A DNA stretch of 64,000 nucleotides from Coptis chinensis. Taxonomy: Eukaryota > Streptophyta > Magnoliopsida > Ranunculales > Ranunculaceae. Positions within the stretch are counted from its first letter, which is position 1. Each line of letters begins with the position of its first letter. This document shows positions 15,246 to 22,166 of the stretch, piece after piece. Under the pieces are notes generated by a model. That model worked only from the letters and a program-made list of their open reading frames with translations, had not been told where the DNA came from and did not search any database. The stretch is taken from NCBI GenBank assembly GCA_015680905.1, contig CM027382.1, positions 14,109,501 through 14,173,500 of the forward strand, given 5' to 3'. Made by a program: the position numbers and the translations under genes.

Positions 15246-18200
15246 TCAGGTATTTCCAATTCCAAGCTGCTTCAGAGAGTCGGGGCCAATGAGGAAAATA
15301 CGCCTAGGGGTTTGGTATCTGAAAACCACCACTCCTTTATATGCCGTTCTAGGGATACCATCCTGGAAACAAAAGTATAATTCAAAACGTGCGAAAAATT
15401 TAATTTCTTATGTAGCAAAATGATGCAAGAACTGAACTTAGGGAAGAAAACATAAAGAATAAGCAAACAAGCCAAGTTGGATGGCAGTTCCACAGGATGT
15501 ATTATATAGGATAATAGCAAGTAAAATTTAAGAGAAGTTATAATGGCTTATAAAAGTTGATATATAAGTTTAATAGCATCAAGCACTTATCACGTTTAAG
15601 GTATCAGCAAACATATAGAGAAATTGTTTTTGTGTGTGCCTGTGACTCTGCCATTGTAGTTATACTTGATTAGAAGTTCTGCATAATCGAGACTCGTGAA
15701 TCGTGATCAGTCTGTTCACTCGACAAATCACGAGTTATGTTTTAAGGACACTTTGAGGCTGAGATATAGATATTCATATGACTCTAAGCCTGTGCAGTTA
15801 AATCGCTACTCGTTTGAAGAGTGAGTAGCGAGTAGGTGTAATCAGTCGGGGATTAATCGGCATTAATCGGGCAATTTTTCATAACTCTATTTCTTTACAA
15901 ATACTTGTTAATATATTTAACATTGAAATACCAACATAATGGAGCCAATTAAGAACCCAATCAATCAATAAACAATCAAAACACTCAATCAACTAAAATA
16001 AATATGATTAAAGTGTAGATCAACTAATTGTCTGGTAAGAGGGAGAAGGGGGGTAAAGAACCTTGGTCTTTACGTGCCCCCCATTCATAATCGACAACCG
16101 GGGTATCTCGTAACCACGGTCGGTCAAATCATAGCCGGCATGCGATTCCCATTGTCACTCCTAGACGTCGAAGTGTGCAACCACTTTCACATTTCCCCCT
16201 ACCAAGGAATCGGTAATTTCTGGAGGATAATGTACGCTGGAAACCATTATAACAAATCCAGAGAACCCAAGATAACACTTCGTGACATCATATCTCATTA
16301 ATATATAAAATAGAGTACCAAGGATGTGAGCCTAGGGTACCATTCTTTCTGTGTGCGTCCCAGGAAACAATCATTCATAGTCTGCATTACCACCTTGGAC
16401 AAGGCCTGACACCACTCCTTGTACGTTTCAGGGAACTTCATGTCTGCGGACATCCCAAGCGATACGACTCTTTCTCATCTAGCTTTTCTTACCAGTGGTG
16501 AGTGTCCCTACTTATCTCCCTTCATATGTGAGATATATTCCGCTAACTGAATGTCTATTTTTCCCTTGCACAGGCTGGAAGGCTGATTCTAAGTCACGCA
16601 TCTACGCGGGTATTACTTCGCCCGTCTTTCAACAACTCCGTAGCTGGGGGTATACACAATCAGAAGTCCTCGGTATAAAGAACCCTTCTCCCTCTTACCA
16701 GCCGTCCATCTGTCTGCCACCCTTGGTCTTAAATAGTGAACACAATCAATAAACAATCAAAACACTCGAATCGGCGAAATGTCAAGTTCGATGTTTAACA
16801 GTGAAATAGTGAACACAATTATTCAGCTAATCAGCACGTATTAATCAGCTAATCGGCCGACTACTTGGGGAGTTTTTGAGCCCGATTGTCATTGGGAATT
16901 AAATTGTTAGTCGGGTCGGCTAAGCAGCGAGTACTCAACGATTTAACTGCCCAGCTCTAGGCCAAATATTTCCACTTCGTCAATCAGTGACTTACATAAA
17001 TAGTGTCAATCTCAAAGAGGAACTTTATCGAGAAGAAGAAAGCTAGACAGAAGAAAAATATAAAGAGAATGCAAAATAGGAGAATGGATTACCTTCCATT
17101 CTTCAAATATTCCAAACTGACGAGCTATGCGCTCAAAATCTGCCTGGTCTTTGTACTGGATGCGCACATCACCATCAATATTATATGCCTTGAGGACGAC
17201 ATCACTTCCATGAACAGGTGTTGCATTTGACACAATGTTGCCAAAGTGCCTTACGTAATTTTCCTGCCAAAAAAAGGTATTTATGGATTACAGGAAAATA
17301 AGAGTAACACTTTCACTGCGTGCCATTTGTGAAATAATTTACCTCCATCAAATAGCTCAGATCCATTGATTTCCAATCAACCTTTGGAAAGAACAAAAAA
17401 ATAGGATCAAACAAATACATTTAAGACATACATATAAGACTGTTGAAAATAATATGATGGCAAAAACAAAAATTACTCACATGACCGTCATTCATCTTAA
17501 TAGGCTCCAGGTATTGCTTGAAGAACTGCCCCATACTAGAACCCTGCAACCCAAAATCAAGGAATTGACTGATTCTGAACTCAAAAGACTTTCTATAAAG
17601 CACAACACAAAGGAACAAAAGCCAAATATAGGCATAATGAAAACAAGCTGCATTCACACTACTAAAGTAGTCTAACAGAATAAACTGGAGTTTATCAACA
17701 CAGTTGTATTTCTATAATCAAAGACAAGATTAGTAGTACGATGCTAGGAATAGTTGAATATTGATTAGACAAGCTGTATCTTTCTAGAGTCTTCTGCTCA
17801 AAAGAGGTTTGCATATTAGAAATTTCCTTGAAAAGATGGGAGATTAAATATTTTGGACTTAACTATTTCAGAACCTCAAGAGAAGTGTTGGGTCACATGC
17901 TGATCTGAATCTGAAGGATCTATTTGAAAGGACCTTGTGTTCCAAATGATTACAGAGACAACATATGTCACGTCTCAAATGAACATATAATGTATTAATG
18001 CAGATAATTATGTAAAGTGAAATATCACTAACTAGTCAGAAAAAGGAAAAGGAAAAGCATCAACATGGGATAGTCCTTTTCTGATTATAAAATGACGGTT
18101 CTTTAGATTTGCATATCAAGTAAAGATACATACATGTTCACCAAAATTGTAAGTCCTGCACACTTCTGGACGTACAAACTGTCGGCCTTTGTGGTTCTCT

Positions 18201-21200
18201 TTTAATCTTAGCCAGTCATCCCAGTAAGTGTAATATTGTCAAGGAAAAGTGATGGAACATAGACAAGAAATATTTCAAAATATGATTTAAGAACTAGAAC
18301 ACAGTATGCCAAGAAGGATATGCCCTAGGCCACTTCGGTGATAGCTCATCCCATGTAGATTTTGTCAACATCCATCCAAGTCCGGGAAAGAAATCTGAAC
18401 GGTATAGACTATCTGCAGGAAATTTCAAAGAGCTGTTTATGAAAAAAAAAGGCATGTCCAAGTAACATTAACTTTGTTCTGATGTCTAAAAGATGATGAA
18501 TGAAATGAGATAATATTGCAGTTATTTTGTAACTTACTGGCATCATGAACAAATTGCTTCTGCCCATTGTCGTTCCATGAGGAAACTGCCATAATGGTCC
18601 TGTTACAATACCATATCAAGCAACATGGCATAAGAGAACATTTAGGGTTAGCAAGACTTGAGCTTAAGTAATCAAAAGAAGAAGAAAAGTACCCCATCCA
18701 AGCTTTAGTTCATCAAAAAAACATACTTATCCTTTTCAAGTAGAGTTGCTGCAGCCTCAAAGTAGTCGAAAAAGTCCACAGATATCTCCATGTCATCTGT
18801 CTTTCAAACAGATATTTTATTACATACATGTCGCTGACATTGTATAGTTCCATAAAAGATGGAAACAAAAGTATAATCAGTAAGAACATTTCTGGTCACC
18901 TTCCAAGATGATTACTCTGGCGAAGTTATGCTTGTAAAACAATTCATCCAATGCCCATTTGTAGTGACCTGGAACAATAATGATTCAGTGGTGAAAAATA
19001 AAGAAAGAGCAGGAGATAAAGCAATCATTACTTGCAATTTTGTAGTATGCGATCAACTCCCCTGGCCTTTCAGTATGAACTTGACCAAAATCCAAATGCT
19101 GCAGTTAAACGAAATAAGTCACTGGAGTAGCTTGAATTTGTCTTCTTGAATATTCAAATTTGATATATTCTATTTCTATCTTTAAAGGTGTTTATATATA
19201 TTCTGTGTAGGAAATGGAATATAAAACACATTTGTTAACAGAGCATACTAATGTTAGTACTATGCTGAATTTACCAACCATACTTGCAGTGTGCATAGTT
19301 AATGCAGAGGGAATGGCGGAACCACTGCCTGTTCTGGTGTGTGTGTGTTTGCTAAATGGGAATTTTTATTAGTGTATGTGTGTCCGTTGTTATATGTGTG
19401 GTCCCTTTAACATCAGCTTGGGCATTTGGTATAAAGAGTTCCATTTATTTGAAAATTTCCCCCATCAGGAACCAGCAATCACGTGATTCCTTGCCATAGC
19501 GTGTATCTTGGCGTTGGAGGGATGTAAGAAAGAAAATTAATGAGCACTCAAGAAAGAAAGAAAGAATTGCTTCTTTACAAAGACCCATGGATTACCACAA
19601 TATGCAACCTGCAACTTTGGGCGTAATCCAAACCTGAAGGGCTCAACCAGACTCAGGTCTTGAAATAGCTGACATATTTTGCACTTACAGTTTGCTTCAG
19701 GTTAAGATTGGAAGAGCCGAATACGGAATACAATACTATATATACCAAGTATATTGAATAAACTAAAAAACAAAACTAAGTCGGTGATGTATTTTTTTAT
19801 AAACTACTTTCAGTTATCTCTGGTACAACTTTTATCCGTTTTTCTTAACATCATATTCATATATAACGATTACTAGCAAGGAATATAAAGTTAACATCAA
19901 ACTCCACATTTGAACTAGAACCAGATACACACCCAAGTTTGATATTTGCCCCAAATATTTTCAAACACAAAGAGACCTAAAGTTCACCTGCATATAAGTA
20001 AGCTGGTTGTAACTTAAAGCTTTCTTCTTCACATTTTCATCTGCCCCATCCTGAAAAAACATACAACCAGATTTTGTTGCAGCATTTCACACTACATACA
20101 TTCAAGAGACAAGTCTTCCATGTTTGTCTCAATAAATAAATAGTAAAGTACAAAACGAATGTGGCACAGAGAAGGATTATGCATATAATTACCTGGGATA
20201 CGAAAAGTGGGAACTTCGAAGCAACAGAGAGTTGATATCTGAAATATATGAATAATAGATATCTGAAGTCTGAATATATGGTAGTTAAGTAGGTGTGAAA
20301 GCACATTTTTCAAGACAATAATAGTGTTGAAAATAAGAAAGGTCGGGACAGTCATACTTTAAAATAGAATCAATTGTTCGTTCCAAATAATCTGGGCGAC
20401 TGCAAGCCATTACCACAACAGCTGCCACTGGAACCTGAAAATTTCCAGAATGCAGGGAGGTTTGATATTGTACATGCTATATTTCTGAAACTTGAAGGGG
20501 GTCGGTGATATTGTACATGCTATATTCCAGAAAGTCTGTTCACCTGTACATTGTCAATTAATTTATGTACGCCTTTTCCTGCAACCAGAAAGTATAAAAT
20601 TTTAAAACACAGATATGATAACAGATCTTAAAGTTGGGAACTCCAAATTTGAAAGTATGATTCACTAGAATAATAAGAAGAAAGAACCAAGTAACAGACA
20701 AATCGTGAGTACATACTTTCAAGATCTTGGAGGAGAGCTCTCAACTGTCCACACTCTTCATCTCGACGCTTTTTTTCTTCTGAAAATGCAGTAATTGTTA
20801 ATTAAATAAGGACCAGACCAGTAATACAAATCTTGTTAGACAACAAGCGATAAAACAGCACTAGAAATGTTCCACAGACCAGATAATTACTGCTTACCAG
20901 AAACACAGCTATAAGCTATTATTCAAAACAATCTTATAATTTTTTATACAACTGTATCATATGAAGATATCTAGACCATGGATGTGTTTATCTGTATAGG
21001 ACAATTCTATTTGAAGTTACACGATGTATTAACAATGTGTCAGCCACTCAGACTCATGTCACGTCAAAAACCTTAGTTAGTTCATTTTTTTTCTATGGGT
21101 AGTGGCCTCGCTCTCCTGGGCAAGATTCGTAATATTCACTGTTCCATGCTTGCTAGTTCGTCCTTGTTCTTTCCATATACATTCTTCTCATATTGAAACT

Positions 21201-22166
21201 ACAGATAACTAGAGCTATAAGGAGATACAAGATTTAAAAATAAGGTTACTGTCGAAGCACCTAATTGCTAATTCCTTAAATTCGACTATTGTCTCTTTCC
21301 TCCTGTTGATCTCATTTCACCACAAAGGAAAGGACAATAATGAACAATATTTCATATAATTGCATATATTTGTGTCAAAATCATCCTTACATCTATTTTT
21401 AGAAGATTTGATTGTGTGAGTGGCTATGTTTGATTCAAAGAAACGAAATTCCTGTAAAATGAAGGGTGTTCCAGGAATCTTAATTCCTATAATCAAAGGC
21501 AACCTTCACTCTGTATTTCCTTTAGAGTTATATATACCATTTGTCAGCTAAAAAGCTATGTAATCAAATGTGCCACCTGGGCAGCTATGTACAGATATGG
21601 CCCTGACTCAAAACCTCACGCAAAATTTTCCTCTTCCATATTTTCATACTAAAATAAAGTAACAAAATATGAATTAAACAAAAGTCCAAGAAGCATACCT
21701 TCGAGCGCCACAATTCGGCCCTGTTGTACGCTAATTTGGTCAATCAATAACCGCGTTTGACTTGTACAGTGGCTCTCAGATTCAATCTGTTCAACAAACA
21801 ACAGAATAACAATCTTATCAGAGTAGATAATCCTTGAATGCTTCCAATATGTATACCTAACCTAGAAGTGTTAGAAATCTGATGGTGCTAAATGTAACAT
21901 AAACATACTGCAGCAGCGAGGCGGTCAGCATACCCAGATTGTGTAGCAAAAAGTCTCATCTAAATATAACAGAAACAAAAAACATAAAGCATATTTGATC
22001 ATTAAAAATTCCACAAGCATGAATGCAATAATAATAATAATAATAATAATAATGGTTTAAAAGAAATGGGAAATTGAGGGGAAATAAATACAAGTACCTG
22101 GATGTAGATAAATGCGACTGCAGCAGCAATAAGAAGGATTCGAACATCGCATATGTTTCTTGCCAT
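15246..22166 (-). CDS. GNTI: Alpha-1,3-mannosyl-glycoprotein 2-beta-N-acetylglucosaminyltransferase (GnT I), GT13 family
   Basis: Golgi type II membrane enzyme that adds the first GlcNAc to Man5GlcNAc2 and opens complex N-glycan synthesis (Arabidopsis CGL1). Eighteen coding exons: 22098-22166, 21909-21959, 21699-21786, 20717-20779, 20544-20578, 20358-20434, 20193-20238, 19988-20050, 19032-19098, 18900-18968, 18727-18796, 18538-18599, 18322-18412, 18134-18227, 17481-17543, 17343-17381, 17093-17263 and 15246-15362. They sum to 1335 nt = 444 residues, the Arabidopsis length, with every phase compatible. A signal anchor lies at residues ~6-24 ([16 protein letters not shown]), a stem to ~100, then the GT13 domain: [20 protein letters not shown] (103-122), the metal-binding EDD motif at 209-211 in [24 protein letters not shown] (237-250), FFPGLGWML (260-268) and [17 protein letters not shown] (285-301). 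An in-frame ATG 24 nt upstream could extend the N-terminus, but the MARN start fits the family. All introns are GT-AG except intron 13, which is U12-type. Confidence 0.97.
15785..16959. mobile_element. Non-autonomous terminal-inverted-repeat element, hAT-like by its ends, in GNTI intron 17
   Basis: The left end TAAGCCTGTGCAGTTAAATC is matched by the reverse complement of the right end, TAGAGCTGGGCAGTTAAATC, and the similarity continues into CTACTCG / GTACTCG. Sub-terminal AATCGGC and AATCAGC motifs recur on both sides. Such TAGNGNTGGGCA ends are common among plant hAT-derived MITEs. I found no clean 8-bp target-site duplication, so the class is inferred. There is no transposase frame. A second inverted-repeat unit lies inside it. 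Confidence 0.6.
16032..16701. repeat. Nested 670-bp unit bounded by a perfect 19-bp inverted repeat
   Basis: CTGGTAAGAGGGAGAAGGG at 16032-16050 is the exact reverse complement of 16683-16701. Outside it a direct repeat (CAATCAATAAACAATCAAAA at about 15962 and 16747) flanks both sides. A CCTTGGTCTT direct repeat also occurs near 16061 and 16724. Inside, 16074-16301 (plus) is open and includes [20 protein letters not shown], which recalls the domain of plant 'putative gypsy type transposon' proteins (PF04195), weakly. Interpretation: a small element or rearranged fragment inserted in the larger inverted-repeat element. Confidence 0.55.
18228..18321 (-). other. U12-type (AT-AC) intron in GNTI
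   Basis: Intron 13 starts ATATCCTTCT (18321 downward), a perfect U12 5' splice site. It carries the branch-point match TTCCTTGAC at 18246-18238 and ends TTACAC at 18228, 11 nt after the branch A at 18239. No GT-AG alternative restores the reading frame. With these borders the junction reads WPRA/YWDDWL, identical in spacing to the family. The intron is 94 bp and splits the codon of Ala284 after its second base. Confidence 0.93.
22026..22053. repeat. (ATA)n trinucleotide microsatellite in GNTI intron 1
   Basis: About nine uninterrupted ATA/TAA units between coding exons 1 and 2 of GNTI. Confidence 0.95.

Follow-up and report, generated by a model that had tools for sequence, protein, structure and literature searches.

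We report that intron 13 of GNTI, the gene for the Golgi enzyme GnT I, which initiates complex N-glycans, in Coptis chinensis is in all likelihood a real AT-AC intron of the U12 type and belongs to an already well described class. The gene lies on the minus strand of a 64-kb stretch (C6:14109501-14173500; hereafter the window, to which positions refer unless a contig is named) of a genome of 935.6 Mb in 116 contigs. We observed the U12-type motifs, an open reading frame across the predicted junction, a match to the protein family at that place, and the presence in the genome of U11, U12 and U6atac loci and of CENATAC. On these grounds we hold with high confidence that intron 13 of the only full-length GNTI gene found is of the U12-type AT-AC kind and would be removed via the minor spliceosome.

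The GNTI gene and its protein

To obtain the gene model, we aligned the 444-residue protein to the window in an exact spliced search that permitted GT-AG, GC-AG and AT-AC introns. The coding sequence runs from 22166 to 15246 in 18 coding exons (444 codons) separated by 17 introns; 16 of these have GT-AG ends, and intron 13 alone has AT-AC ends.

15246..22166, minus strand: GNTI (GnT I) coding region with introns (spliced search, PF03071, PDB 1fo9)
15248-15246, minus strand: GNTI stop codon TGA (spliced search)

The protein matches Pfam PF03071 (GNT-I) with 621 bits over residues 14-441 (cut-off 25.4) and chain A of PDB 1fo9, which we take to be rabbit GnT I, with an E value of 6.6e-85 over residues 104-434. 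Alignment with 1fo9 shows that the EDD and WDDW stretches are both present; we assume these to be the metal site and, as part of YWDDW, the active-site stretch of GnT I. In the rabbit enzyme Asp291 is the catalytic base, and the first Asp of WDDW is presumably residue 291 if the EDD site corresponds to residues 211-213.

Intron 13 matches both U12-type consensus motifs

The U12-type consensus is RTATCCTT at the 5' splice site and TTCCTTRAC at the branch site. Intron 13 and its flanking exons are arranged as follows (nt, nucleotides).

18322..18412, minus strand: exon 13, ending TGG CCT AGG GC (WPR and 2 nt of Ala284; spliced search)
18228..18321, minus strand: intron 13, probable U12-type AT-AC intron, 94 nt, phase 2 (spliced search and motif match)
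18314..18321, minus strand: U12-type 5' splice site ATATCCTT (8/8 versus consensus)
18238..18246, minus strand: U12-type branch site TTCCTTGAC, branch A at 18239 (9/9 versus consensus)
18228..18229, minus strand: AC end of intron 13, 11 nt past the branch A (motif scan)
18134..18227, minus strand: exon 14, starting T TAC TGG GAT GAC TGG (YWDDW; spliced search, 1fo9 alignment)

The 5' splice site ATATCCTTCT agrees with its consensus at all eight positions and the branch site at all nine. The initial annotation had proposed this intron, and its coordinates, borders, branch site and 11-nt distance from branch to end, together with the 16 other GT-AG introns, were reproduced exactly by the spliced search. 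By inspection, there is no pyrimidine tract between the branch site and the AC end, the branch A being followed by CAATATTACAC. These features bear on the idea that the major (U2) spliceosome removes intron 13 in spite of its AT-AC ends. Such introns do exist, amounting to 0.01% of the U2-type introns of Arabidopsis thaliana in the IAOD table, as given in the portion of the article available to us (PMC7367187), but the two perfect U12-specific motifs and the AC end without a preceding pyrimidine tract make U2 removal highly improbable here.

None of the other 16 GNTI introns fully matches either U12 motif, the best agreement being 7/8 for the 5' site and 8/9 for the branch site. The nearest are two GT-AG introns: intron 3 (window 21698-20780), with GTATGCTTCT (7/8) and TTAATTAAC (7/9), and intron 14 (window 18133-17544), with a near-U12 branch motif TTCCTTGAT (8/9) and a 5' site of 5/8. 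These motifs reflect either chance or traces of U12-to-U2 conversion.

The RNA of intron 13 folds no better than shuffled sequences (of 200 shuffles, 194 fold equally well or better; z +1.5), and its candidacy as a structured intron was dropped.

The motif combination is rare by chance

We assessed a loose pattern consisting of ATATCCTT, 20-300 nt, TTCCTTRAC, 6-16 nt and AC, using dinucleotide-preserving shuffles of the 6.9-kb pre-mRNA. It was present in 1 of 2000 shuffles. Even with an AC or AG end permitted, intron 13 is the sole place in the window that fits. The window contains ATATCCTT once on each strand and TTCCTTRAC three times overall. Across the 935.6 Mb genome, a pattern shaped like intron 13 gave 12 rows, which correspond to 10 distinct loci (two counted twice); the same pattern read backwards gave 4 rows, and by this control several of the 10 loci are chance matches. 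One is intron 13 itself (by construction), one its copy on contig C2 and two lie in CWF19L1-like genes, while the remaining six, read by eye, have no evident coding junction.

Only one pair of borders yields the family sequence

To compare intron borders around the junction, we surveyed all in-frame, stop-free pairs with donors 21-200 nt into the stretch from exon 13 to exon 14 and introns of at least 40 nt. There were 37 such pairs (8 GT-AG, 6 GC-AG and 23 AT-AC), and a single one, 18321/18228, produced WPRAYWDDWL. The other 36 were rejected, as they do not produce the family sequence. In the alignment with PDB 1fo9, WPRAYWDDWL lies opposite KWPKAFWDDWMR with no gap, and the wider stretch across the junction (..ELEPKWPKAFWDDWMRRPEQRKG..) is ungapped there too. 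The earlier claim that AT-AC borders alone give WPRA/YWDDWL thus holds, and for just this one pair. The AC end is ambiguous going by sequence alone: AC dinucleotides also end 9 and 15 nt past the branch A. Both of these break the frame, and the 11-nt end alone keeps it.

The survey also bears on the possibility that a GT-AG pair is used in place of AT-AC, giving a shorter or altered protein. Eight of the 37 open-frame pairs are of this kind, for example a 94-nt one that would join ..SWHTV to LKENHK. However, all eight lose WDDWLR, which by the 1fo9 alignment contains what we take to be the active-site Asp of the family, and four of them bring intron codons into the protein; we give this alternative next to no weight compared with the AT-AC borders.

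Predicted splicing and the consequence of retention

The minor-spliceosome pathway begins with the U11/U12 di-snRNP (small nuclear ribonucleoprotein), followed by U4atac/U6atac.U5. For intron 13 we infer how splicing proceeds, which factors carry it out and what becomes of the unspliced RNA as follows. The U11/U12 di-snRNP would bind ATATCCTT and TTCCTTGAC, and U4atac/U6atac.U5 would join afterwards. Splicing would then connect exon 13 (..WPR-GC) with exon 14 (T-YWDDWL..) and so re-form the active-site stretch of GnT I. With the intron left in, translation would meet an in-frame stop:

18294..18296, minus strand: in-frame TAG on retention of intron 13 (translation of the retained form)

This stop follows eight extra residues and would cut the protein at 292 of the 444 residues, with loss of WDDW. 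Four introns lie downstream of it. Nonsense-mediated decay is expected where a stop lies upstream of introns, so the retained transcript should be degraded or inactive.

The early stop raises a further possibility, which would add to U12-type splicing and not replace it, namely that intron 13 is spliced but often retained and so acts as a brake on the amount of GnT I. In human cells, AT-AN minor introns show relatively high basal retention, according to the accessible part of one study (PMC8280824). Against such a brake, the splice motifs of intron 13 are at consensus and its RNA folding (z +1.5) is no better than that of shuffles; we regard it as unlikely. More doubtful still is that splicing of intron 13 is slow enough to set the GnT I level, in which case the AT-AC-specific factors CENATAC and DROL1, or stress on the minor spliceosome, would shift the share of complex N-glycans made in the Golgi.

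Minor-spliceosome components in the genome

Small nuclear RNA loci were counted genome-wide above the cut-off of each model. We found five U12 loci, 15 U6atac loci and one U11 locus, and a recheck by Rfam scan confirmed two U12, one U11 and one U6atac locus. U12 pairs with the branch site and U6atac with the 5' splice site of minor introns. One U12 locus (L045) contains GTAAGGA, complementary to the branch site; by eye, this stretch can base-pair with TCCTTGAC if one A is bulged out and one G-U pair is included. The sense strand of one U6atac locus (L050) reads AAGGAGAGA and can, again by eye, base-pair with the CCTT in the 5' splice site. CENATAC (CCDC84) is represented by three matching pieces at one locus on C6; in human cells it serves AT-AN minor introns, as stated in the available part of PMC8280824. 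As a separate observation, a segment of less than 90 kb (C8:4679619-4767383) contains three of the 15 U6atac-like loci.

Some results weigh against U12-type splicing of intron 13. Besides the chosen borders, 8 GT-AG, 6 GC-AG and 22 other AT-AC pairs keep the frame open, none of them giving the family sequence. The genome-wide search for U4atac gave no match, a result shared by the control genomes, so that absence is not shown. Likewise, the U11-48K zinc finger had no match genome-wide, with a model of 25 residues that was positive in one control; given the size of the genome, neither negative demonstrates absence. We retain the U12-type AT-AC intron as our reading. The dependence of GnT I on the minor spliceosome asserted in the initial annotation stands in so far as the intron appears to be U12-type and its removal would be needed by the only full-length GNTI gene found.

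CWF19L1-like AT-AC introns on contig C3

Two closely similar CWF19L1-like genes or fragments (C3:807864 and C3:929942) each contain an AT-AC intron. These introns, 91 and 92 nt in length, have the form ATATCCTTTT..TTCCTTGAC..AC and are in phase 2, with AC 11 nt past the branch A. Their removal joins ..EIVDLFL-TNEWPSGV.. in frame, whereas reading through leads to a stop at both loci. Compared with the PDB, the protein matches CWF19-like protein 1 (E 2.2e-16), which reads VDILLTSPWP at the place of the junction; a shorter stretch of the CWF19L1-like protein matched no Pfam family. Judged by motifs and frame, the CWF19L1-like gene at its two loci likewise needs an AT-AC intron removed and serves here as a positive control from C. 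chinensis itself. Its introns share the 5' motif, branch site, AC distance and phase of GNTI intron 13 and differ in their host, a CWF19-like protein as opposed to a Golgi enzyme.

GNTI copy number and fragments elsewhere

Among the best candidates, which are the ones that the search tool scored, there were 41 GNTI protein matches in the genome, and all those reaching residues 1-251 sit at the GNTI locus. Nine further DNA matches to the GNTI region were all inspected, and none is a full-length gene. None of the nine is a spliced retrocopy recording the exon 13/14 junction; they retain introns or begin at the junction. No relative outside this genome was confirmed among the viral and prokaryote contig collections.

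One of the nine (L035, C2:12492000-12500500) is a GNTI pseudogene fragment covering window 18528-15052 in pieces. Its U12 intron is identical at 94 of 94 positions, its intron 15 at only 78 of 86 with 13 gap positions, and its exon 14 carries an in-frame TAG.

The other eight (L036-L043, on C2, C4, C9 and C42) are fragment copies of exons 14-17 with introns, covering window 18228-15381 approximately. Their matches start at 18232 in five copies and at 18223-18220 in three, and foreign sequence is joined on inside the final bases of the U12 intron. Introns from 14 on are retained, and six of the copies extend to window 15381, ending alike in intron 17. The copies are embedded in a larger repeated unit, with up to about 6.9 kb common with L040 at 91-98% identity; six share their 3' end, which by eye includes a hairpin, and L036 also bears a protein-kinase fragment. 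The unit looks like a gene-capturing element. Six of the eight copies lack about 857 bp of intron 17 (window 16034-16890), part of which, to about 16743, is retained in the C2 fragment L035. The difference reflects either an insertion at the GNTI locus or a loss in the copies.

Discussion

Plant U12-type AT-AC introns have the same kind of 5' site, branch site and ends as intron 13, which does not differ in anatomy and is notable for its host gene alone. Frank et al. in 2008 reportedly described an Arabidopsis cgl1 allele, C6, in which the 3' splice site is mutated in intron 14; that intron may or may not correspond to intron 13 here. For A. thaliana, the portion of the IAOD article at hand lists 269 U12 introns, 26% of them AT-AC (PMC7367187). 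An excerpt of a further study counts 64 AT-AC introns in A. thaliana transcripts and, at the positions aligned with these in other plants, finds 967 AT-AC, 93 other non-canonical and 157 GT-AG introns (PMC7072748). As this partial account has AT-AC introns largely conserved among plants, intron 13 may be shared and catalogued. Mutations in Arabidopsis DROL1 impair AT-AC U12 introns (as cited in the accessible part of PMC11039992).

The Nicotiana tabacum gene GnTI.A has 19 exons in the section of PMC7873608 available to us; it encodes the same enzyme and is, like C. chinensis GNTI, a many-exon gene, a comparison that concerns exon count and not splice-site dinucleotides. In the literature text searched (parts retrieved, PMC3204403 among them, outside supplements and U12 catalogues), GNTI or CGL1 of plants was nowhere said to contain a U12 or AT-AC intron, a weak indication that none is in print. 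Intron 13 may already be listed in such a catalogue. We regard it as an ordinary representative of a known class, in a gene of moderate interest.

For gene prediction the case calls for caution, as each of the eight open GT-AG alternatives loses the WDDW stretch. Loss of GnT I removes complex N-glycans and, according to the same section of PMC7873608, causes a severe growth phenotype in rice gnt1, unlike in Arabidopsis cgl1 mutants. Whether complex N-glycosylation is tied to the minor spliceosome would hang on conservation of the intron in other plants and on splicing of intron 13 limiting GnT I. If an AT-AC intron is obligate before the active-site codons, the phenotypes of minor-spliceosome mutants of plants could partly arise in the Golgi.
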